Assembly (NCBI GenBank): GCA_029547025.1
Contig: JAKPQA010000131.1
Location: forward strand, 1 to 53,019
Reading direction: 5' to 3'
Length of the DNA: 53,019 nt
DNA from: Armatimonadota bacterium
Lineage (GTDB): Bacteria > Armatimonadota > Zipacnadia > UBA1398 > JAKPQA01
Below the pieces are notes generated by a model, which saw only the letters and a list, made by a program, of their open reading frames with translations, did no database searches and was not told the DNA's origin. This document shows positions 23,487 through 46,689 of the stretch, one piece after another. The position numbers were made by a program, and so were the translations under genes. How positions within the stretch are numbered: the first letter of the stretch is position 1; every line of letters begins with the position of its first letter.

Positions 23487-24332
23487 ATGGCCGTGCGAAC
23501 CGTGCCCAAGATCGAGCCCCCGTTCCCGGGGCTAGGCGAGATCGTTGCCGTGATGGGTGAGGCCGGCCATCGGCTGGCAGAGATTGGAGCCAGCGAGGGG
23601 GCCGCGGGGAACATCTCGGTCTACATCGGGTGGCCCCTTGACCCCCGGCGGCGCTTCCCGGTCGAGGAGGAGATCGAGCTTCCTGAACCCGCTCCAGAGC
23701 TCAGCGGGGGGCTGCTGCTGGTAACGGGATCGGGCCGACGGCTTCGGGAGATCGCCCAAGACCCGGAGGCCAACATCGGCGCGCTGATCGTGAACCCCGA
23801 CGGTCGAACGGGGCGGTTCTACGCGTCGCACCGACGGCTGTTCGCCCGGTTCACGAGCGAGCTGAACTCGCACCTGGCCGTGCATCGGCAGCAGGTACCG
23901 GCCGACGACCTGAACTTCCACGCCGTCATCCACGGCCAGCCGATCCACCTGACCTATCTGAGCCATCTGCCCGAGTACCAGGACAGCCTCTACCTGAACC
24001 GGCATATCTTGCGCTGGCAGCCGGAGCTCATCGTGAATCTGCCCGAAGGGGTGGCCGCGCTACCCTTCCGCGTCCCAGGGTCCCCCGAGCTGATGGAGCT
24101 CACGCTGGCCGCCATGCGTGACCACCGTGTCGTGGTGTGGGGCAAACACGGCGTGATGGCGCGGTCGGCGTTGTCGGTGAAGCGCGCGGCCGACCTGATC
24201 GAGTACGCCGAGACCGGTGCCCGATACGAGTACCTCAACCTGGCGAACCACGAACGAGCCCAGGGTTTGGCCGTCGAGGACATCCAGGCCATCTGCCGGG
24301 CGTTCTCGATAGAGCAGAGCATCTTCGGCTGA
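23487..24332 (+). CDS. class II aldolase, rhamnulose-1-phosphate aldolase-like
   Basis: A 281-residue cytoplasmic protein. It has the class II aldolase/adducin motifs GAAGNISVY, GGLLLVTGSGRRLREI, the general-acid region TSELNSHLAVH (E125), HAVIHGQPIHLTYLSH and WGKHGVMARS. The order and the LVTGSGRR loop are closest to RhaD, which splits L-rhamnulose-1-phosphate to dihydroxyacetone phosphate and lactaldehyde. The exact zinc ligands do not align perfectly with E. coli RhaD (the HxH pair reads HAVIH here), so related substrates are possible. GAGGGAGA precedes ATG 23487. The gene is followed after 26 bp by a peptidase and is not in a recognisable rha operon. Confidence 0.82.
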   Translation: MAVRTVPKIEPPFPGLGEIVAVMGEAGHRLAEIGASEGAAGNISVYIGWPLDPRRRFPVEEEIELPEPAPELSGGLLLVTGSGRRLREIAQDPEANIGALIVNPDGRTGRFYASHRRLFARFTSELNSHLAVHRQQVPADDLNFHAVIHGQPIHLTYLSHLPEYQDSLYLNRHILRWQPELIVNLPEGVAALPFRVPGSPELMELTLAAMRDHRVVVWGKHGVMARSALSVKRAADLIEYAETGARYEYLNLANHERAQGLAVEDIQAICRAFSIEQSIFG

Positions 24333-24358
24333 CACCGACACGAGGGGGAACCACTCCT

Positions 24359-26974
24359 ATGGCTCCGACACGGGCTTCGCGAGGACTCGCGCTTGCCGCT
24401 GTCCTGCTGGTGGCCGGGTCGGCACTGGCCCAACAGGCGCCCGAGCCCACGATCCAGGTGCTCGACAACGGGCTCACAGTCATCGTGCAGGAGCAGCACG
24501 CGAGTCCCGTGGTGGCGGTCCGGTTCCTGGTGGGGACGGGGAGTGCCTACGAGGGCCGGTACCTCGGGGCCGGGCTCTCGCACCTGGTCGAGCATGCCAT
24601 CGACGGCGGCACGCCAACCCGGAGCCGCACCGACATCCAGAAGCTGATCGAGTCCATCGGGAACGCGTCCAACGCGATGACCGAGTACGACACGACGCAG
24701 TATTACATCACCACCAGTGCTCCGTGCTGGAGCCAGGCGCTGGAGGTGCTGGCCGACTACGTCCTTCATCCGACCTTCCCCGAGGAGATCGTCCAACAGG
24801 AGCAAGGGGTAATCCGGCGTGAGATGGCCATGTCGGATGACAATCCCGCCGACCGCGCGTGGGACCTGGCGCTGGAGACCGTGTTCCTGGTGGACTCGTC
24901 ACGCCACCGCATCCTGGGCTATCCCGCCCTGTTCGATGCGTTGACGAGAGACGATCTGGTTGCCTACCACCAGGATCGGTATGTACCTGAGAATGTCACC
25001 ATCGTCGTGGCGGGGGACGTGACGACCGCTGACGTGATCGATCGAACCCGGGAGCTGCTGGGCTCGCTGCCACGCCGGGCGCTCAAGGCCGTGGCTCGGG
25101 AGAGCGAGCCGCCGCAAACGGCTCCCCGACGCCGCACCATAGTGGACCCCGATCTCGACACGGCGTACCTCATTATGGCGTACCGCAGCATCGACCTACT
25201 CCATCCGGATCTCTACGCCCTTGATGTGCTGTCGTATGTGCTCTCGCAGGGCGCGAGTTCGCGGCTGGTGCGGACCCTGCGGGATGAGCAGTCGCTGGTG
25301 TCGCACATCGAGACCCACTCGTACACGCCGCCGCGCCGGCCCGGCGTGTTCGCCGTCGAAGCGATGGTAGACCCGGCGAACCTGGTGCCCGCCGAGGCGG
25401 CCATCGCAGACGAGTTGCTCCGCTGCCAGACTGAGGAGGTAACGCCAGAGGAGCTGGACCGGGCCAAAGCTCAGAAATCGGCCGAGCTCGTGTTTGCCCG
25501 CGAGACCGTCGAAGGCCTCGCGTCGCAGCTCGCGTTCGACTACTACGCCACGGGCGATGTGCGTTTCAGCGAGAGGTACGTCGAGGGCATCCGCCGGGTT
25601 ACGGCCGAAGATGTGAAGCGGGTGGCCGCGACGTATCTGCGCCCGGAGGCGCTCTGCGTGGCCCTGCTCACGCCCACTGAGTCCGAAGCGTCCCAGGAGG
25701 CCGTCGGGGCGCCGTCGGCCGCCCCGGTTCAGAAGGTAACACTCGACAACGGCCTGACCCTGCTCTTGGGCGAGGACCACGCGGTGCCCATGGTCTCAGT
25801 GGTCAGTGCTACGCTGGGCGGCCTTCGCGCCGAGACCAGGGAGAACAATGGCATCTGCAGTCTGACGGCCCAGACCATGCTGCGGGGCACGGCGTCGCGT
25901 AGTCGGGTGCAGATCGCCCGGGCGCTCGAGGACGTGGGCGGCCATCTCGAGGTCTCCTCTGGACGCAACAGCATCACCGTGACGGCCACGGTGTTGGCGC
26001 AGAACCTGGACACGGCGCTCGACACGGTGGGCGACGTGCTGCAGCACGCCACATTCCCCGAGCAGGAGCTCGCCGCCGAGAAGCAGCAGGCACTCGAGGG
26101 CTTGGCCCAGGAGCAGGATGATGCCTTCGCCGCGTCTGAGCGCCTGTTCCTGCCCTACGTCTACACGCGGCACCCGTACGGCATGGAGCCGTCCGGCACA
26201 CCCGAGTCCGTGGGGGGACTGACTCGCGAAGCAGTGGTCAGCTTGTATGACCAGTTGGTAAGGCCCGAGCGAACGGTTCTCGCTCTCTATGGGGACTTCG
26301 ATGCGACCGCCGCCCGCGCGGCCGTGGAGAAGGCGTTCGCAGGCTGGGCTCGGGGCGACCATGCCTTTGTTGCCCCCGAGCCGGAGCGGCCGCTTGCGGA
26401 GTTGCGGTCGGCGACGCTGACTCGGCCCCAGGGCCAGACGATGGTGATGTTCGGGTTCCCGGGCCCTCGGCTGGCCGACGACGACTTCTATGTGCGCGAG
26501 GTGCTGGACGCCATGCTCTCGGGGAAGGGGCTGCCGGGGGGGCCGCTGCACAACACGCTGCGGGAGCGGGGGCTGGTGTACATGGTGCACGCGTGGTCGG
26601 CAGACGGTCTGGAGCCGGGGCACTTCACCATCGTCGCTGCCACGGCGCCGGAGACCGCCGACCAGGCCAAAGCGGCGATCGAGGAAGTCGTGATGAACTT
26701 CCTTTCTACGGTACCTTCGGAATCAGATTTGGCTGCAGGAAAGCAGATGTGCATCGCCGAACATACTCTGTCCTTACAGCAGCTCTCGAGCCGTGCGCAG
26801 GAGGCGGCTCTGAATGAGCTCTACGGCCTGGGCTTCGATCGGTCAGCCCACTACGCCGAGCGGATCCAGGAGGTCACTGCGGACGACATCCTGCGGGTGG
26901 GCAGGCAGTTGCTGGACCTGAAGCACTGTGTGACTGTGGTGGTGGGACCGGAGCGGGCGGCACCCGCGCCGTAG
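24359..26974 (+). CDS. M16 (insulinase/pitrilysin) zinc peptidase, two-domain
   Basis: An 871-residue secreted peptidase. After a signal peptide (GLALAAVLLVAGSALAQ), the first M16 domain carries the inverted zinc motif H75-L-V-E78-H79 and a distal Glu in VIRREMAM (E155). The second half, from about residue 455 (VTLDNGLTLLLGEDHAVPM), repeats the fold but has no HxxEH, so it is the usual inactive partner domain that closes the chamber; RERGLVYMVHAW is the conserved R/Y motif region. It probably degrades peptides outside the cytoplasm. ATG 24359 follows an AGGGGGAA site. Codon use is like that of its neighbours. Confidence 0.93.
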   Translation: MAPTRASRGLALAAVLLVAGSALAQQAPEPTIQVLDNGLTVIVQEQHASPVVAVRFLVGTGSAYEGRYLGAGLSHLVEHAIDGGTPTRSRTDIQKLIESIGNASNAMTEYDTTQYYITTSAPCWSQALEVLADYVLHPTFPEEIVQQEQGVIRREMAMSDDNPADRAWDLALETVFLVDSSRHRILGYPALFDALTRDDLVAYHQDRYVPENVTIVVAGDVTTADVIDRTRELLGSLPRRALKAVARESEPPQTAPRRRTIVDPDLDTAYLIMAYRSIDLLHPDLYALDVLSYVLSQGASSRLVRTLRDEQSLVSHIETHSYTPPRRPGVFAVEAMVDPANLVPAEAAIADELLRCQTEEVTPEELDRAKAQKSAELVFARETVEGLASQLAFDYYATGDVRFSERYVEGIRRVTAEDVKRVAATYLRPEALCVALLTPTESEASQEAVGAPSAAPVQKVTLDNGLTLLLGEDHAVPMVSVVSATLGGLRAETRENNGICSLTAQTMLRGTASRSRVQIARALEDVGGHLEVSSGRNSITVTATVLAQNLDTALDTVGDVLQHATFPEQELAAEKQQALEGLAQEQDDAFAASERLFLPYVYTRHPYGMEPSGTPESVGGLTREAVVSLYDQLVRPERTVLALYGDFDATAARAAVEKAFAGWARGDHAFVAPEPERPLAELRSATLTRPQGQTMVMFGFPGPRLADDDFYVREVLDAMLSGKGLPGGPLHNTLRERGLVYMVHAWSADGLEPGHFTIVAATAPETADQAKAAIEEVVMNFLSTVPSESDLAAGKQMCIAEHTLSLQQLSSRAQEAALNELYGLGFDRSAHYAERIQEVTADDILRVGRQLLDLKHCVTVVVGPERAAPAP

Positions 26975-27369: not shown

Positions 27370-28362
27370 ATGACCAGTCGTGAGCGCGTCATTCGCACCC
27401 TCCGCTTCGAGGGCCCTGATCGGATCCCGGTCGATCTGTGGTCGTTACCGGCCGCTTGGGACCGGCACGGCGAGGGCTTGCGCCGACTTCTTGAACGACA
27501 CCCCACCGATTTCGGCGGGTCGGGCTATGAGGATCCGTTCTACGACCCCCGCGCCTATCAGGTGGGCGAGTACGAAGACGTATGGGGCTGCCACTGGCTT
27601 CAGCTCCGGCCGGGTATGATCGGCGAGGTGAAGCGGGCGCCGCTTGAGGACTATGCCGCGCTCGAGTCGTACCGGCCGCCCGTGCACTTGCTGGACAGGG
27701 GATTCGAGCGCGTGCGAGAGACGCTGGCCGCAGACCACACCCGGTTCGTCAACGGCTGGGGCGGCAACCCCTTCGAGCGCATGCAGTTCCTCCGCGGGCC
27801 CGAGAACCTCTACATGGACATCGCCAGCCCCTCGGACCAGTTCGTGGCGCTGCGCGACATGGTCTTCGGCTTCTTCGAGGCGCTGGTCGACCGGTGGGTC
27901 GAGACCGATGTGGACGGCATCACGTTCCTGGACGACTGGGGTAGTCAGAGGGGGTTGCTGATCCGGCCCGAGGCCTGGCGCAGCCTGTTCCGGCCCAGTT
28001 ACGAGCGGCTCATCGGCCGTGCCAAGGCGGCGGGTAAGTTCGTCTTCTTCCACAGCGACGGTCACATTTTCGACATCTACGGCGACCTCATCGACATGGG
28101 CGTCGATGCCATCAATTCGCAGCTTTGGTGCATGGACGTCGGGGCCATCGCGGCCCGCTACGCGGGGAAGGTCACCTTCTGGGGAGAAGTGAGCCGCCAA
28201 GACACGCTGCCGCGGGGCACGCCAGACGACGTGCGCGCGGCAGCGCGGAGGATGCGCGAGCTGTTCTTCGCCAACGGCGGCCTCATCGGCGAGGGCGAGG
28301 TAGGCGGCGATGTGCCACTCGCCAACGTCGAGGCCCTGCTGACGGCGTGGAATGAGCCCTAG
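27370..28362 (+). CDS. uroporphyrinogen-decarboxylase-like (MtaA/CmuA-type) protein
   Basis: A 330-residue protein of the URO-D superfamily. Typical segments are the N-terminal TSRERVIRTLRFEGPDRIPV, DGITFLDDWGSQRGLLIRPE, WRSLFRPSYERLIGRAKAAG, the HSDG loop (FFHSDGHIFDIYGDLIDMG) and the GGLIGEGEVGGDVPLANVEA tail. The opening and the HSDG histidine fit the MtaA/CmuA branch, which transfers methyl groups between corrinoid proteins and thiols, more than haem-pathway HemE. No corrinoid protein gene is adjacent, so the substrate is unknown. ATG 27370 follows AGAGGGAGT. The end overlaps the converging lipoprotein gene by 4 bp. Confidence 0.85.
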   Translation: MTSRERVIRTLRFEGPDRIPVDLWSLPAAWDRHGEGLRRLLERHPTDFGGSGYEDPFYDPRAYQVGEYEDVWGCHWLQLRPGMIGEVKRAPLEDYAALESYRPPVHLLDRGFERVRETLAADHTRFVNGWGGNPFERMQFLRGPENLYMDIASPSDQFVALRDMVFGFFEALVDRWVETDVDGITFLDDWGSQRGLLIRPEAWRSLFRPSYERLIGRAKAAGKFVFFHSDGHIFDIYGDLIDMGVDAINSQLWCMDVGAIAARYAGKVTFWGEVSRQDTLPRGTPDDVRAAARRMRELFFANGGLIGEGEVGGDVPLANVEALLTAWNEP

Positions 28363-28544
28363 CGCGTCGCGCCGGGGGCGGGGGTGCTGCCCTGCAGGCC
28401 GCCACCCGTGCGCTTCTCGTTCAGGTCTAGCACCTTGGCGTCGGAGTCCTTATCCCCACCCTTCTTGCATCCGGCGGCCAGTGGGACGGCCACGACTAGC
28501 AGGGCGAGACATCCGGCCAATGCGATACGGGACCAGTTCTTCAT
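28359..28544 (-). CDS. small lipoprotein
   Basis: A 61-residue protein starting MKNWSRIALAGCLALL. It has a hydrophobic signal and a lipobox at LAAGC (Cys27), then a charged, Gly/Lys-rich mature part (KKGGDKDSDAK, ending STPAPGATR). It would be lipidated and anchored to the membrane. AGGAAG lies upstream of ATG 28544. It is 120 bp after the radical SAM gene on the same strand and might be the last member of that cluster, but no functional link is visible. Confidence 0.65.
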   Translation of the reverse strand: MKNWSRIALAGCLALLVVAVPLAAGCKKGGDKDSDAKVLDLNEKRTGGGLQGSTPAPGATR

Positions 28545-28664
28545 TCGTGCCACTTCCTGTCGTCTGAGTTCGCGGAACCGGCAGCCCTTCTGCGGCGCCG
28601 GGCACGAAGGTTCCAGTTGGGTAACTGGTTCGGGCGGGCCTCGCACGACTCCTTGCCGCCAACA

Positions 28665-30140
28665 CTACGCCCTGAGCTGTGCGGTCCCCATGTGCGGCGA
28701 GTGGGCGCCGCACGACTCGGTGTCGGCGCTGGTCGCCAGAGCCGATACGTCGTCGCGGATGTAGAACCCGAACTCCTGGAGCACCGCGAGCTTGGGCAGT
28801 ACGTTCCCCGCCAGGTCGTAGTGGAAGAAGCCGGGGAAGATGTCCTTGTGCTGGCCGATGAAGTCGAAGATGGGCCGGTGCGAGTCGGCAATGCGCACCC
28901 GGCTGCCGCGGCACTCCTCGTGCCCGGTGAGCATGTACTCGGGGAGGAGCTCGTCGCAGAACTCGAGCGCCTCCGGGTTCTCCAGCTCGGCGTAGATGTC
29001 GGTCTGCGGCAGGAAGCACAGCAGCGAGGGGAGCACTCGAGCGCCCAACATGCGAGCGGAGACCATCTGGAAGACAGTCTGGTGGAAGTCGTCGAGAGTC
29101 TCGAAGGGGAACCCCCACATGTAGAAGGCATCGGTTCGCGGGAACACGCGGACAGCTTTCCCGAGCACGGGGAGCACGTCGACGGCGCGGAAGCCCTTCT
29201 TCGTCCGACGGAGCACTTCGTCCGAGCCCGACTCGATGCCGAACCGCAGCTCGACGCAGCCGGAGTCGGCCATCATCTTCATGGCGTCCTCGTCGACCAG
29301 ATCGACCCGCCCGAAGGCCTTCCACATGACCTGCAGGCCCGAGGCCATGAGGTCACGTGAGAAGCTTCGAGCGCGCTCGGCGCTGGCCACGAAGAACTCA
29401 TCCTGGAAGAGGAACAGGCCCACGCCGTGCTCGGAGTTGAGGTAGCGCATCTCGTCGATGACATCGGCGTTGGACCGGACCATGGGTTGGCGGCCCCAGA
29501 TGGGCGCCACGCTGCAGAAGGTGCAGGGGTAGGGGCATCCGCGCGAGGTCATCATGCCGTAGCCTGCGTACTTCGACAGGTCGACCTTGTGGTAGGCCGG
29601 GCGCGGGGCCGAGTCGAGCGGATCGATACGCGCCGCCGCGGGTGTCCGCACGATGCTGCCGTTGCGGCGCAGCACCAGGCCCGGTTGCCCTACCAGATCC
29701 TCGCCGGCTTTGAGTGCCCGCAGCCAGGCGGGCACGCTGCGCTCGCCCTCGCCGTGTGCGATGAGGTCAATCCACGGGAAGCGCGTGAGGAGCTTCTCTT
29801 CGACCCACGCAGGCCCCACGCCACCGAGAACGGTGGTGACGCCGGGGTAGGCCTCCTTGACCTTCTGCAGTGCCAGTACGGCGAAGGGGAGCAGGTTGGC
29901 CATGCAACTGAAGCCGACCACCGGCGCCGGGTCACGGGTGAACTCGAGAATGGCCTCGGCGGAGAAGGGCTCTGGGTGGTCGTTGAGCTGGTAGTCGCGG
30001 AAGTCGACCTCGAAGCCCGCCTGCTCCAGCGCGCTCGTGAGGTACAGCGACCCGAGCGGCACGTGCAGCTCTCGCTCGACCTTGTCGTAGTAGCGCATGT
30101 AGAGCATGTTGAGGTTGACCAGCGTGATGTCCGCGCTCAT
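28665..30140 (-). CDS. B12-binding-type radical SAM protein
   Basis: A 491-residue enzyme. The N-terminal Rossmann domain (about 1-160) has the pattern of the cobalamin-binding family (HVPLGSLYLTSALEQAGFEV, VVGFSCMANLLP, VTTVLGGVGPAW, DLIAHGEGE) but lacks DxHxxG, so base-off cobalamin binding through His is unlikely. The radical SAM 4Fe-4S site is C202-PYP-C206-TF-C209. It continues with DEFFVASAERARSFSRDLM, CVELRFGIESGSDEVLRRTK, and a C-terminal region of unknown role. Such enzymes methylate or rearrange unreactive carbons. ATG 30140 has GGAGG nine bases upstream and overlaps the zinc-ribbon gene stop by four bases (ATGA), so the two are translationally coupled. It is a candidate modifying enzyme for the two leader-like proteins upstream. 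Confidence 0.9.
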   Translation of the reverse strand: MSADITLVNLNMLYMRYYDKVERELHVPLGSLYLTSALEQAGFEVDFRDYQLNDHPEPFSAEAILEFTRDPAPVVGFSCMANLLPFAVLALQKVKEAYPGVTTVLGGVGPAWVEEKLLTRFPWIDLIAHGEGERSVPAWLRALKAGEDLVGQPGLVLRRNGSIVRTPAAARIDPLDSAPRPAYHKVDLSKYAGYGMMTSRGCPYPCTFCSVAPIWGRQPMVRSNADVIDEMRYLNSEHGVGLFLFQDEFFVASAERARSFSRDLMASGLQVMWKAFGRVDLVDEDAMKMMADSGCVELRFGIESGSDEVLRRTKKGFRAVDVLPVLGKAVRVFPRTDAFYMWGFPFETLDDFHQTVFQMVSARMLGARVLPSLLCFLPQTDIYAELENPEALEFCDELLPEYMLTGHEECRGSRVRIADSHRPIFDFIGQHKDIFPGFFHYDLAGNVLPKLAVLQEFGFYIRDDVSALATSADTESCGAHSPHMGTAQLRA

Positions 30141-30583
30141 CCGAAGTACCTCCGTTGCCATCTGCCCACCGTCGTCGACAGGCCATCGTCCATGGCATCT
30201 CGCACGAAGTCCCAGGCGAGGAACCCCACGAGCAGCCCGAGCAGCACGCCGGTCAGCAGAGCCGGCTCTGCGGAGAGTTCGAGCGGGCCATCGCGGTAGT
30301 TCCTCTCGGTGCTCTGGATGATCTGCACCATCCAGAAGAGCGCCAGGGCATCGCCCAGGAGCGCTCCCACGATGTCCGATGCGTGCTTGTTGTACCAGAC
30401 GTGGCGGTCCAGCAGCTCGCGCCCACAGTGCGGACACCACCGCGTGTGCAACGGGATGCGCTCCCCGCACATCAGGCATTTCGCGAACGCCTCTTGCCTC
30501 AGTGGCACCTCGCGGCTGGCATAGCCATCGCAAGCATGGTTGCCAACCCCTACGAGCACGCGGGCCAGAGGACACGGCGGCAC
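30137..30583 (-). CDS. zinc-ribbon protein with transmembrane helices
   Basis: A 148-residue frame. A zinc ribbon is formed by C36-L-M-C39 and C50-P-H-C53. Two hydrophobic segments follow (IVGALLGDALALFWMVQII and LLTGVLLGLLVGFLAWDFV), then a basic tail. The cytoplasmic ribbon plus two helices suggests a membrane-bound adaptor; no family is recognised. The start is uncertain: GTG 30583 lies 6 bp after the upstream stop with GGAG nearby, but a start further in (GTG 30508) is possible. It overlaps the radical SAM gene by four bases. Confidence 0.72.
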   Translation of the reverse strand: MPPCPLARVLVGVGNHACDGYASREVPLRQEAFAKCLMCGERIPLHTRWCPHCGRELLDRHVWYNKHASDIVGALLGDALALFWMVQIIQSTERNYRDGPLELSAEPALLTGVLLGLLVGFLAWDFVRDAMDDGLSTTVGRWQRRYFG

Positions 30584-30589
30584 GATGAC

Positions 30590-31186
30590 CTACTCTCCGG
30601 CCGGCCTGTCGGCGGGAGGCGCGTTCGGGCCCCGCTTGCCCGATCCGCGCAACGGGTCATCAGGCCGGATGCCCTGCAAGCGAGACATGTCGGGGCTGAT
30701 ACCCATGGTTGCCGGGAAGTCAGGGGTGATGCCGAGCGTGGTGGTCTCCCTCTTCCGGCACCCCATCTGACTGGTCGCGCCGGCAACGCCGAAGAGGGCA
30801 ATGCCCGCGGCCGCGGCCAGCCTTCGGAGCAAGCCACGCCGTGCTGGGCTGCTCGGGGCAAGCTGGGCGATCATGGCCTGCAGGTGCTTAGCCGGTATGG
30901 CCAACAGGATGGCGTGCTCGGAGACCGAGAGCTCGAGACCGGAGCGCTCCAGCGCGCCGGCGCGGTCAGACATGAGCCGCGTGCGGAACCGGCCATCGGC
31001 CGCGGCCTTGCGGAGCACGCGCTCGATGCCCATGGGGACATCGACGACGGCGTCATCGCCCGGTGGCCGTCCGCCCACAATCGTCGTCCGCACGCCGTTG
31101 CGCAGCCGGTCGATGGCGTCGCCAGCCTTCAGCTCCTGCAGTGCGTGGCGCAGGTCGCGCGACTTACGTCCGAGCCAGCCTGGCAT
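30590..31186 (-). CDS. NHLP-leader-like protein with C-terminal 10-residue repeats (candidate RiPP-type precursor)
   Basis: A 198-residue protein. Residues 1-50 include the motif VRTTIVGGRPPG (32-43). Residues about 53-110 resemble the NHLP-clan (Os1348-like) leader: GIERVLRKAAADGRFRTRLM, then ALERSGLELSVSEHAILLA. Residues 114-140 start with SPARRGLLRR, a double-arginine run before a hydrophobic helix (LAAAAGIALFGVAGA) that ends at C143. Residues 151-180 are three contiguous 10-residue repeats: LGITPDFPAT, MGISPDMSRL, QGIRPDDPLR. Its paralogue at 31282-31815 aligns without gaps for the first 133 residues. ATG 31186 has AGGAGG eight bases upstream. Next to a radical SAM enzyme this looks like a precursor peptide, but a membrane-anchored protein is an alternative. 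The leader assignment is from pattern only. Confidence 0.72.
   Translation of the reverse strand: MPGWLGRKSRDLRHALQELKAGDAIDRLRNGVRTTIVGGRPPGDDAVVDVPMGIERVLRKAAADGRFRTRLMSDRAGALERSGLELSVSEHAILLAIPAKHLQAMIAQLAPSSPARRGLLRRLAAAAGIALFGVAGATSQMGCRKRETTTLGITPDFPATMGISPDMSRLQGIRPDDPLRGSGKRGPNAPPADRPAGE
30647..30736 (-). repeat. three tandem 30-bp units encoding xGI[TSR]PDxxxx
   Basis: Codons 151-180 of the leader-like protein form three exact 10-codon units with the shared core G-I-x-P-D. The first unit spans 30707-30736, the second 30677-30706 and the third 30647-30676. The DNA differs at many third positions while G, I, P and D are kept, which suggests selection on the peptide rather than recent slippage. 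Confidence 0.8.
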
Positions 31187-31281
31187 GTCCAACCGCCTCC
31201 TGGGGACGGCGTCCGGTTGAGAGAGGCTATCACCAGTGTGTCGGTGGCTCTCCGCGCGCGAATCGTTGGGTCAGCACTGCG

Positions 31282-31815
31282 TCAGGGGTCGCTGGAGTCC
31301 GCCGTGATGCCTCGGGTCTTGGGCGGCGCGCTGGCGTCGGCTGCCTCGACGCCCTCAGGCAGATCGGGCTGCGCTCCCGTCGCGACCGTCACCGCGCAGC
31401 CCGGCTGGGTGACGGCGCCGAAGATGACGATGCCGGCGGCAGCCACCAGTCGGCGCAACCAGCTTCGTCGCGACGGGCTGGTGGGTGCGAGCTGAGCCAC
31501 CATGGCTTCGAGCTGCTCGGCCGGGGCGGCCAACAAGATGGCGCGCTCGGCGGGTGTCAGCGCCAGGCCGGACGCGCGCAGTGCGCCGTCGCGGTCAGTC
31601 CACAGCCGCGCGCGGAAGGCGCCGTCAGCCGCCGCACGGCGCAGCACGCGTTCAATGCCGATGGGCACCTCGACCCGGGCATCATCGCCGGGCGGTCGCC
31701 CCCCCACGATAGTGGTGCGCACGCTGCGGGTACTCCAGCCGACTCCGTCGCCGACCCGGATCTCCTGGAGTGCGTGGCGCACATCGCGCGCTTTGCGTTG
31801 GATCCAAATCCGCAT
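31282..31815 (-). CDS. second NHLP-leader-like protein, paralogue of the 30590 gene
   Basis: A 177-residue protein. Residues 1-133 align gap-free to the neighbouring paralogue, including VRTTIVGGRPPG (32-43), GIERVLRRAAADGAFRARL, ALTPAERAILLAAPAEQLEAM and SPSRRSWLRRLVAAAGIVIFG. After the hydrophobic segment ending at C140 the proteins diverge; this one ends KTRGITADSSDP, with a single degenerate copy of the GIxPD motif (GITAD). ATG 31815 was chosen because the paralogue begins at the same alignment position; the ribosome-binding site is weak (GGGGGTG). It is the first gene of the cluster and is divergent from the GH42-like gene, with 115 bp between. Confidence 0.72.
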   Translation of the reverse strand: MRIWIQRKARDVRHALQEIRVGDGVGWSTRSVRTTIVGGRPPGDDARVEVPIGIERVLRRAAADGAFRARLWTDRDGALRASGLALTPAERAILLAAPAEQLEAMVAQLAPTSPSRRSWLRRLVAAAGIVIFGAVTQPGCAVTVATGAQPDLPEGVEAADASAPPKTRGITADSSDP

Positions 31816-45072: not shown

Positions 45073-46689
45073 ATGAGCGACACGATGAGCCGCCGGACCT
45101 TCATCAGGGGAATGGGCGCGGCCGCCGCCTCGGCTCTGGCGGGGCGCGCCCATGCCCAGACAAGGGAGGCCACAGTGGGTAACCGGCCCAATGTGCTCTT
45201 CATCATGACCGACCAGCAGCGCGCGGACACCATCGCCGCGCTGGGGAATGACCGGATCTACACACCGAACTTGGACCGTCTGGTCCGCCGCGGCGTGTCC
45301 TTCACCAACGCTTACACGACATGCCCGGTCTGCGTCGCGGCGCGATTGACCATCCGAACGGGCCGCCAGCCGCGCCGTACCGGCGTCTATGGGAACTCAC
45401 CTCCGACGCTGGTGGATGGCGAGCCGCTCGCTCCGGAGGAGCGCTGCGGGCCGTACCTCGCCCGGACCATGCGGGGTCTCGGCTACCGCACGTTCGGGAT
45501 CGGCAAGTTCCACTCGATGCCGTGGGACGAGGACCTCGGGTATGACACCCAGCTCCACAGTGAGGAGCTCTACGGTTCACCGGACCAGCGCGGCCGCGAT
45601 GCCTACGCGGCTTTCGTCGCCAGAGAGCACCCGGAGTATGACTTCATCGAAGGCCTAATGGGCGAGCGCACCGAGATGTACTACATGCCCCAGATGAGCC
45701 CCATGCCCAAGGAGTGCACCGTCGAAGCCTGGGCGGCCGACCGGGCCGTCGAGAGCATCGGTGCCGACGACGACAGGCCTTACTTCGGCTTCGTGTCCTT
45801 CGTCGGCCCGCACCCGCCTTTGGCACCGCCGATACCGTTCAACCGCATGTATGACCCCGACCGGATGCCGAACCCGATCAGGGGTGACCGCGACACCGAT
45901 CTGGCGGACGAGCAGATCCGCTGGATGAACTACGCGATCTGGGCGGAGGACATCAACGACCCGCACGCGCGCGTGCTGAGAGCACGCTACTACGGCGAGG
46001 TGTCCTACATCGACTGGTGCCTGGGGCGGATCCTCGATGCCGTCGACGCACGATCGGACGCGGACAACACGGTCATTTGCTTCTTCAGCGACCATGGTGA
46101 CCACCTGGGCGACCACCATGCATGGCAGAAAGAGAGCTACTTCGAGCAATCGTGCCGGATCCCGTATCTCGTGAGTTGGCCGGCCCGGCTCCCGCAGGAC
46201 ACTCGCCGTGCAGACTTGGTCTGTCACAGTGACCTGTTCGGGATCGCCACCGGCGCCGCGGGGGCACGGGACACGCGGGACGGCGTGGACCTGCTCGGTG
46301 CCATCGAGGACGGGGCGCCCACGAGGGAGACGCTGGTCGGGACGTATAGCGACCCAGGGACACCGGAGTTCAAGACCATGGTTCGGCACGGCCACTGGAA
46401 GTACATCTACATGGCCAACGGCGCGCGCGAGCAGCTCTTCGACCTGGCGGAGGACCCCGGTGAGCTGAGGGAGCTATCGGCGCGCCACCGGAGCACGACG
46501 AGGCGCCTGCGTGAGCTGGCCGTCGACTACCTGGCGGGATCGCCCAACTCCGCTCGGGCGCTCGACGGCGCGGACCTGCTCGGCTTTCCCCCCACCGAGA
46601 GGCCCCTGCAGCGGATCTACCAGTTCGACTACTCGCGCGGCGTTCGAGGGTTCCCAGAGAGCCCCGCCGACGTGCTGAAGGGGCTCTAG
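45073..46689 (+). CDS. Tat-exported type I sulfatase
   Basis: A 538-residue sulfatase. The N-terminus has a twin-arginine signal SRRTFIRGMGAAAASALA (R7, R8). The sulfatase core follows: PNVLFIMTDQQRADTIAAL, the formylglycine site C87-V-A-A-R91 (CxAxR form, accepted by FGE-type maturation in known sulfatases), TGRQPRRTGVYGN, and the later GDHLGDHHAWQKESYFEQS and KYIYMANGAREQLFDLAEDP segments. It would hydrolyse sulfate esters, likely of polysaccharides, outside the cytoplasm. ATG 45073 has GGGAG upstream. No anaerobic maturase gene is in this window. Confidence 0.93.
   Translation: MSDTMSRRTFIRGMGAAAASALAGRAHAQTREATVGNRPNVLFIMTDQQRADTIAALGNDRIYTPNLDRLVRRGVSFTNAYTTCPVCVAARLTIRTGRQPRRTGVYGNSPPTLVDGEPLAPEERCGPYLARTMRGLGYRTFGIGKFHSMPWDEDLGYDTQLHSEELYGSPDQRGRDAYAAFVAREHPEYDFIEGLMGERTEMYYMPQMSPMPKECTVEAWAADRAVESIGADDDRPYFGFVSFVGPHPPLAPPIPFNRMYDPDRMPNPIRGDRDTDLADEQIRWMNYAIWAEDINDPHARVLRARYYGEVSYIDWCLGRILDAVDARSDADNTVICFFSDHGDHLGDHHAWQKESYFEQSCRIPYLVSWPARLPQDTRRADLVCHSDLFGIATGAAGARDTRDGVDLLGAIEDGAPTRETLVGTYSDPGTPEFKTMVRHGHWKYIYMANGAREQLFDLAEDPGELRELSARHRSTTRRLRELAVDYLAGSPNSARALDGADLLGFPPTERPLQRIYQFDYSRGVRGFPESPADVLKGL

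Follow-up and report, generated by a model that had tools for sequence, protein, structure and literature searches.

A putative leader-guided B12-radical SAM module for the modification of exported proteins in an Armatimonadota bacterium

In the window analysed here, i.e., the whole stretch of 53,019 nucleotides of contig JAKPQA010000131.1 from an Armatimonadota bacterium, two tandem paralogues are followed by the genes for a zinc-ribbon-like membrane protein and a B12-binding radical SAM enzyme, all on the minus strand (Table 1). The question raised by this locus is whether these genes constitute a peptide-modification system that has not been described so far, as the original prediction had it, and, if so, what is being modified. 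The observations behind that prediction can be upheld and its interpretation for the most part as well, with the set-up appearing broader than assumed and unlike an ordinary natural-product cluster. In particular, with a probability of about 0.6 the locus is here taken to encode a compact protein-modification module in which a leader-guided B12-dependent radical SAM enzyme would modify the tail of its partner protein and a signal peptide would export the product.

The paralogues and the radical SAM enzyme

The two paralogues align without gaps over their first 133 residues with 88 identities, in agreement with the length of about 133 residues given originally. The aligned part includes VRTTIVGGRPPG as well as GIERVLRxAAADGxFRxRL and is followed in both proteins by the expected RRxxLRR run, a hydrophobic helix, a cysteine and divergent tails. 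Likewise, a profile search for leader similarity, which had been proposed as a check that could refute the prediction, found the Os1348 NHLP leader model NF038399, with paralogue 1 scoring over its curated cut-off of 40 bits and paralogue 2 a hair under it, and with 56 of 57 homologues matching at E ≤ 0.01. The closest solved relatives of the leader domain are Os1348 (6lk7) and NHLP leaders: the leader profile matches 6lk7 with an E value of 4.7e-6, and the same structure came top in a fold search, with a Foldseek probability of 0.99 but an E value of only 0.05. In the AF2 model of paralogue 2 the leader helices (pLDDT of about 97) are accompanied by a long helix spanning residues 114-136 and a disordered tail. 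No match that would link the paralogues to phages was obtained in a PHROGs search.

Table 1. Positions of the module's features in the window
Feature	Positions	Strand	Basis
Leader-lipoprotein paralogue 1, 177 aa	31282..31815	-	NF038399 45.2 bits, E 7.6e-12; family adjoins same radical SAM clade in many phyla
Conserved N-terminal motif VRTTIVGGRPPG, paralogue 1	31687..31722	-	TIVGG-type motif in 66/101 homologues; column frequencies
Os1348/NHLP leader domain, paralogue 1, residues 54-110	31486..31656	-	NF038399 profile match
Twin-arginine pair of Tat-like n-region, paralogue 1	31465..31470	-	Family consensus R64 R50 x F71 L50/M23
Lipobox-like Cys140, paralogue 1	31396..31398	-	Family Cys frequency
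Tail motif GAQPD, paralogue 1	31363..31377	-	Family motif G-x-x-P-D
Tail motif (TR)GITAD, paralogue 1	31297..31311	-	Degenerate GIxPD motif
Leader-lipoprotein paralogue 2, 198 aa	30590..31186	-	NF038399 39.8 bits, E 3.6e-10; AF2 model
Conserved N-terminal motif VRTTIVGGRPPG, paralogue 2	31058..31093	-	As for paralogue 1
Os1348/NHLP leader domain, paralogue 2, residues 53-110	30857..31030	-	Profile match; closest solved fold Os1348, 6lk7
Twin-arginine pair of Tat-like n-region, paralogue 2	30836..30841	-	Same family consensus
Hydrophobic helix 114-136, paralogue 2, predicted signal peptide h-region	30779..30847	-	Family pattern, AF2 model
Lipobox-like Cys143, paralogue 2	30758..30760	-	Family Cys frequency
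Tail motif GITPD, paralogue 2	30719..30733	-	Family GIxPD motif
Tail motif GISPD, paralogue 2	30689..30703	-	Family GIxPD motif
Tail motif GIRPD, paralogue 2	30659..30673	-	Family GIxPD motif
Zinc-ribbon-like membrane protein, probable passenger gene of operon	30137..30583	-	Within operon; missing from relatives' pair
B12-binding radical SAM enzyme, 491 aa, putative modifying enzyme	28665..30140	-	PF02310 and PF04055 over cut-off; 65 orthologue loci
Radical SAM CxxxCxxC (C202, C206, C209)	29514..29537	-	≥98% conserved in 66 sequences
SCGAHSP signature, flexible C-terminal tail of enzyme	28695..28715	-	95-100% conserved although disordered

With respect to the enzyme, the B12-binding (PF02310, 50.9 bits, cut-off 32.1) and Radical_SAM (PF04055, 53.4 bits, cut-off 29.5) domains both score over their Pfam cut-offs, and, as judged from these domains together with the CxxxCxxC motif, the protein is of the cobalamin-dependent radical SAM class, as predicted (AF2 model pLDDT 86.8). 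It belongs to an unnamed clade of 52-66% identity with an invariant C-terminal SCGAHSP, which is absent from the nearest outgroup enzymes, as is a neighbouring leader gene. Among the matches listed, none of the named B12-radical SAM equivalogs (ApyD, BchE, HpnJ, PhpK and others) reaches its cut-off, the best curated match being ApyD with 156 of 750 bits, and the nearest solved structure is MgmA (9ccb; profile E 1.9e-23, fold E 1.7e-20, about 21% identity); the likeness to both is at the superfamily level and far under curated cut-offs.

Linkage, tail motif and export

With the enzyme as probe, its orthologues were found on 65 contigs from uncultured genomes belonging to at least ten phyla, and 57 of these contigs also carry a leader protein gene, mostly immediately upstream. 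Since paralogue and enzyme thus recur together across phyla, the pair is more than a chance arrangement, and the proposed neighbourhood check, in which leader homologues almost always adjoin this radical SAM gene, turned out in favour of the original prediction. In a set of 577 genomes from three phyla, each of the 22 that encode the enzyme also has leader proteins. A leader gene without the enzyme occurs in one further genome only, where a deletion has fused what is left of this gene pair. By this co-occurrence and by the adjacency across phyla, the pair combines a ribosomal precursor carrying a leader with a dedicated putative modifying enzyme, which is one of the features expected of a RiPP system. 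The distances among enzymes and among leader proteins are correlated (r = 0.78, 0 of 5000 permutations), a mirror-tree signal uncorrected for shared species history. Individual loci contain one to six linked leader genes, and unlinked copies exist in addition.

Both divergent tails carry G-I/A-x-P/A-D motifs. In the family, G-x-x-P-D is observed 181 times against 12.6 expected and T-x-G-I-R-P-D-x-P 139 times against 1.0, i.e., about 140-fold over chance, and patterns derived from GIRPD rank top in an unbiased motif scan. This enrichment strengthens the earlier suggestion that the tails are the substrates, a role which we still infer. In the open-licence literature, no relevant paper was found for the GIRPD-type tail motif, nor any for the combination of RiPP, twin-arginine, radical SAM and lipoprotein.

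Between leader and tail, a lipobox-like cysteine is present in 70% of the family members and its position is preceded by G, A or S in 90%, with [GAS]C occurring in 65 of 101 leader proteins; position -3 is not the usual Leu, and in some proteins an AxA site takes the place of the cysteine. Both TatC and LspA are encoded in the genome. However, a twin-arginine pair is found in only 46 and a Tat-like pattern in 38 of the 101 proteins, and the curated TAT model TIGR01409 matched two of 57 homologues, so that export could also proceed via Sec. Some leader proteins carry whole domains of an exported type in their tails. A Pfam scan of ten such inserted domains recognised only TonB_C and CarboxypepD_reg; others, without a Pfam match, may be read by eye as thioredoxin-, hydrolase- or pilin-like. 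Such whole domains argue for a maturation of exported lipoproteins rather than of a small secreted antibiotic, and, together with the internal, usually lipoprotein-like signal peptide, make a modified exported protein a more probable product than a small secreted peptide.

In the mechanism proposed here, each paralogue would use its N-terminal Os1348/NHLP domain as a leader that recruits, within the cytoplasm, the B12-dependent radical SAM enzyme encoded next to it. The repeated T-x-G-I-x-P-D-x-P motif would be where this enzyme modifies the tail, most likely by C-methylation at an unactivated carbon of the motif or beside it, given that ApyD, as the nearest curated family, methylates Tyr at C-beta and that the nearest structure, MgmA, is a protein Gln methylase. 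Export would follow by way of the internal Tat-like signal peptide, which usually bears a lipobox-like cysteine. Signal peptidase II, or signal peptidase I where AxA replaces the cysteine, might remove the leader along with the signal peptide, so that a modified tail or domain, usually anchored to lipid, would remain on the outer side of the cytoplasmic membrane. Several substrates may be served by a single enzyme, including some encoded elsewhere in the genome.

Comparison with known systems and alternative explanations

The leader family is shared, by profile and by fold, with the Os1348/PosA and PflA precursors of Pseudomonas (NF038399; 6lk7). In these systems, too, the leader guides modification near the C-terminus, with specificity determined by the short C-terminal motif ARMD, to which the short tail motif of the present family might correspond. 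Unlike the module described here, they employ HEXXH and MNIO-nitroreductase enzymes, and the precursor Os1348 is a small protein of 85 residues for which the literature consulted describes neither a signal peptide nor a lipobox. An antibiotic function by analogy with the solved Os1348 relative was considered but not adopted, since the two proteins are built differently behind the leader.

As to the enzyme, ApyD, the aminopyruvatide B12-radical SAM and a peptide C-beta methyltransferase, has an RRE of its own and a P450, an MNIO and a methyltransferase as partners, whereas no Pfam match to an RRE (PqqD-like) was found in the enzyme under study. MgmA, the glutamine C-methylase of methyl-coenzyme M reductase, also modifies a protein, but one that is a folded enzyme of the cytoplasm, and it is not known to depend on a leader peptide. 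The CUAEP/CCAEP-tail B12-radical SAM proteins (NF040546) are named for a conserved cysteine-containing C-terminal tail, which is, however, unrelated in sequence to SCGAHSP, and the enzyme studied here scores 54 of 500 bits against their model.

The combination of an NHLP-clan leader with a B12-radical SAM enzyme recalls the proteusins (PoyB/PoyC), and the original prediction had drawn this analogy. A classical proteusin-type RiPP, in which a protease would free the modified tail from its leader for release as a secreted bioactive peptide, would fit with Os1348-clan leaders being known from RiPP pathways with characterised enzymes (PMC7726476, PMC12636437), and with B12-radical SAM enzymes modifying proteusins (PMC5682303). 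However, the curated proteusin models do not bear this out (TIGR03793, 14.7 of 50.9 bits for 30590-31186; TIGR03975, 99.2 of 281.85 bits for the enzyme), and no protease, transporter or other tailoring gene, including epimerase or lanthionine-type enzymes, was found as a recurrent neighbour of the pair. Moreover, in contrast to proteusins the tails repeat the GIxPD motif behind a predicted signal peptide, and they hold lipobox-like cysteines or AxA sites as well as whole exported domains, so that a proteusin-type pathway appears unlikely. Hardly more probable, if not slightly less so, is that the enzyme modifies the leader proteins elsewhere, e.g., at TIVGGRPP, in the lipobox region or in an inserted domain, with the GIxPD repeats serving, e.g., surface binding. 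TIVGGRPP is indeed strongly conserved in 66 of 101 proteins (column frequencies T83 I93 V91 G97 G79 R66 P79), and 16 of the 101 leader proteins lack GxxPD, some of them bearing a hydrolase-like domain instead. Yet many paralogues adjoining the enzyme lack TIVGGRPP, which would moreover be lost with the discarded part of the protein, whereas GxxPD occurs more widely than any other tail feature (in 85 of 101 proteins and at 52 of 55 loci).

That the HpnJ, HpnR and BchE models of lipid and cofactor enzymes match at the superfamily level might indicate that the substrate is a lipid or another small molecule, the leader lipoproteins being partners or carriers; this is improbable in view of their RiPP-type leader, unstructured repeat tail and variable copy number, all of which resemble substrates. 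The gene of the zinc-ribbon membrane protein, finally, is placed between those of paralogue 2 and the enzyme, the previously noted 6-bp gap and 4-bp overlap both being exact on recomputation, and its product could in principle be an essential third component, e.g., a docking or export factor. The protein has CxxC-CxxC and hydrophobic helices, its zinc-ribbon Pfam matches being under curated cut-offs. The gene is, however, missing from the pair in the three nearest relatives (G001, G002 and G031), one of which has only weak matches of 33% at unlinked places, and it is no recurrent neighbour; it was therefore rejected as a conserved component and is probably incidental to the module, an essential role being very improbable.

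The wider proposal, for and against which the odds appear even, is a hitherto undescribed maturation pathway in which a RiPP-type leader precedes a Tat or lipoprotein signal peptide. The enzyme would place a new modification on GIxPD motifs in exported lipoproteins, of which some include entire folded domains, and the signal peptidase would double as leader protease. The module appears to have reached uncultured bacteria in at least ten phyla. The sequence data point to a widespread and apparently undescribed chemical modification of exported proteins. As one enzyme and one substrate suffice, the module is small, its short motif can be tested, and the invariant cysteine-containing tail SCGAHSP offers a specific and equally testable clue to the enzyme mechanism. 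If true, leader-guided radical enzymology would also decorate exported proteins and not only small antibiotics, an ordinary signal peptidase would dispose of the leader, and an unnamed B12-radical SAM clade of many uncultured phyla would have been given a function.

Leader, signal peptide and tail of the paralogues

The pair of leader-protein genes and radical SAM gene lies on the minus strand of the window, start codons being assigned by simple rules. The 6-bp gap and 4-bp overlap claimed between the genes were borne out on the window sequence, and the gap-free alignment of the two paralogues was confirmed, with 88 identities in the first 133 residues. Directly downstream of the enzyme gene, at 28359-28544, is a small lipoprotein-like frame (MKNWSRIALAGCLALLVVAVPLAAGCKKGG...) with no family match over cut-off, and at 24137-26974 there is an M16-type zinc peptidase-like frame (HxxEH) whose start as called is probably too early.

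Coordinates of the gene run in the window and of the fusion frame in planctomycete genome G502
Feature	Position	Strand	Remark
Paralogue 1	31282-31815	minus	first gene of the run
Paralogue 2	30590-31186	minus	after paralogue 1
Zinc-ribbon-like membrane protein	30137-30583	minus	between paralogue 2 and enzyme
B12-radical SAM enzyme	28665-30140	minus	after the zinc-ribbon-like protein
G502 fusion frame	L122:3722-4198	minus	leader-lipoprotein N-terminal half and radical SAM C-terminal end

The leader-like nature of the paralogues proposed in the original prediction is supported by profile search, as NF038399 (Os1348 family, NHLP clan) yields 45.2 and 39.8 bits at a curated cut-off of 40 and matches 56 of 57 homologues at E ≤ 0.01. 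In the PDB, the family profile matches the Os1348 crystal structure 6lk7 as well as nitrile hydratase alpha chains, and 6lk7 is also the best fold match (probability 0.99 but weak E-value of 0.05) of the predicted paralogue structure, which comprises leader helices with a pLDDT of about 97, a single long helix at 114-136 and a disordered tail. Judged by these similarities, both paralogues carry a RiPP-type leader. Passages in the literature put the Os1348 protein forward as an antibiotic-related precursor (PMC7726476) and, in later work, report that the homologous pos and pfl pathways modify an Os1348-type precursor (PMC12636437).

Between leader and tail, the alignment shows an n-region of the form R (64%)-R (50%)-x-F (71%)-L/M, followed by a hydrophobic helix; a Cys comes next in 70%, and the residue right before it is G, A or S in 90%; in Riflebacteria and others an AxA-like site (by eye) replaces the Cys. 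By its sequence, this segment is a predicted signal peptide. Some tails contain exported-type domains (TonB_C, carboxypeptidase-regulatory-like), and the genome of the window encodes TatC and LspA. As some members lack twin arginines and only 2 of 57 are matched by the curated TAT model, Tat would be the likelier export route but is not established. A handy Tat yardstick from the window's own genome is the frame at 45073-46689, sulfatase-like by eye, which opens with a clear twin-arginine signal (SRRTFIRGMGAAAASALAGRAHA).

With respect to the tails, G-x-x-P-D was observed 181 times in 101 tails (12.6 after shuffling) and G-[IVAS]-[RQSTGH]-P-D 139 times (1.0 after shuffling), the former being carried by 85 of the 101 proteins and 52 of 55 loci. 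In a motif-free scan of all spaced triplets the top ranks were pieces of G-I-R-P-D; Gly stands three residues ahead of Pro at 129 of 137 PDxP sites, and the motif extends to both sides, with T-x-G before and D-x-P after it. Myxococcota tails often have GxGPD and then Asp-Thr-Asp repeats. Three myxococcal loci (L078, L079, L083) each encode several leader paralogues, all with Asp-Thr-Asp repeat tails, that start with TIVGGQP in some and with another conserved sequence, G-x-KGSWKRRG, in others. Leader lipoproteins lacking GxxPD, with an exported part that is alpha/beta-hydrolase-like by eye, were seen at L109:1505-2596, L110:2125-3222 and L081:5956-6990; Pfam gave no match for the exported part from L081, the one of the three tested.

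Linkage of enzyme and leader proteins

Both Pfam domains of the enzyme (B12-binding and radical SAM) exceed their cut-offs, while none of the NCBIfam models listed for it does so, the top one being ApyD (156/750 bits); by sequence it is a cobalamin-dependent radical SAM protein without a family name of its own. Its model is confident (pLDDT 86.8) except for the final 27 residues, and the nearest solved relatives are MgmA, TsrM, CysS, TokK and AprD4. In the disordered C-terminus SCGAHSP is nearly invariant, mostly followed by LATR; its Cys may serve as thiol or ligand in the reaction, a guess from conservation. At L117-L121, the loci of the closest non-clade enzymes, both SCGAHSP and a leader neighbour are lacking. 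At two of these loci, in planctomycete genomes, three related radical SAM genes lie in a row (L117:1191-5289, L118:1708-5830), with no leader proteins nearby.

Two short patterns of the enzyme, run against 84,980 species genomes, retrieved 65 loci (52-66% identity), which do not amount to a census and come from Armatimonadota, Planctomycetota, Riflebacteria, Myxococcota, Thermodesulfobacteriota, Elusimicrobiota, Lentisphaerota, Verrucomicrobiota, Zixibacteria, Coatesbacteria, Aminicenantes and Chloroflexota. All are titled MAGs, so that binning errors are possible, yet the gene pairs share single contigs. Contrary to what would be expected if the paralogues' homologues were never near radical SAM genes, 57 of the 65 loci have one to six leader proteins on the enzyme's contig. 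As to the others, the contig starts inside or at the enzyme in four (L074, L087, L092, L094) and opens inside an apparent precursor tail (IRPDAPGM) in L064; precursors are present on other contigs of the genome for L068 and L082, and L089 has a shortened enzyme in a genome without precursor.

At the genome level, strong leader-profile and enzyme matches fall in the same four of 291 Armatimonadota genomes, adjacent in each, a count that leaves out weaker Os1348-domain matches in nine other genomes. The enzyme occurs in 11 of 40 Riflebacteria genomes, the leader protein in the same 11, and in 7 of 246 sampled Planctomycetota genomes (E below 1e-240), all with the leader; together, 22 of 22 enzyme-bearing genomes have it. 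The only other leader match of that strength in the three phyla is in G502, where a single frame joins leader, helix and Cys to the C-terminal end of the enzyme (ESCGAHSPRGQDLATR); this frame looks like what an internal deletion has left of the gene pair, or a chimeric assembly. Several genomes encode additional leader proteins distant from the enzyme. Distances between enzymes and those between their adjacent leaders show a correlation of 0.78 over 53 loci (0 of 5000 permutations), a value that includes shared species history.

When all frames around the pair in the 65 loci and in the window were clustered, the leader proteins formed the one large family; the other recurrent neighbours were common, unrelated genes, none of them in more than seven loci. 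The zinc-ribbon membrane protein, originally included as a component of the system, is not among them; because it is missing from the pair in the window's three nearest relatives and its matches elsewhere are weak and unlinked, it is probably a passenger gene.

Proposed maturation of the leader lipoproteins

No description of the module was found among open-licence papers, which is not proof of novelty. According to the best-supported reading, the Os1348 domain would recruit the enzyme, which would modify the GIxPD tail, whereupon the signal peptide would direct export of the protein; signal peptidase would therefore remove leader and signal together. The likeliest chemistry would be C-methylation, since both the nearest curated relative, ApyD, which forms beta-methyltyrosine (PMC10635010), and the closest relative among solved structures, MgmA, are C-methyltransferases, albeit distant ones.
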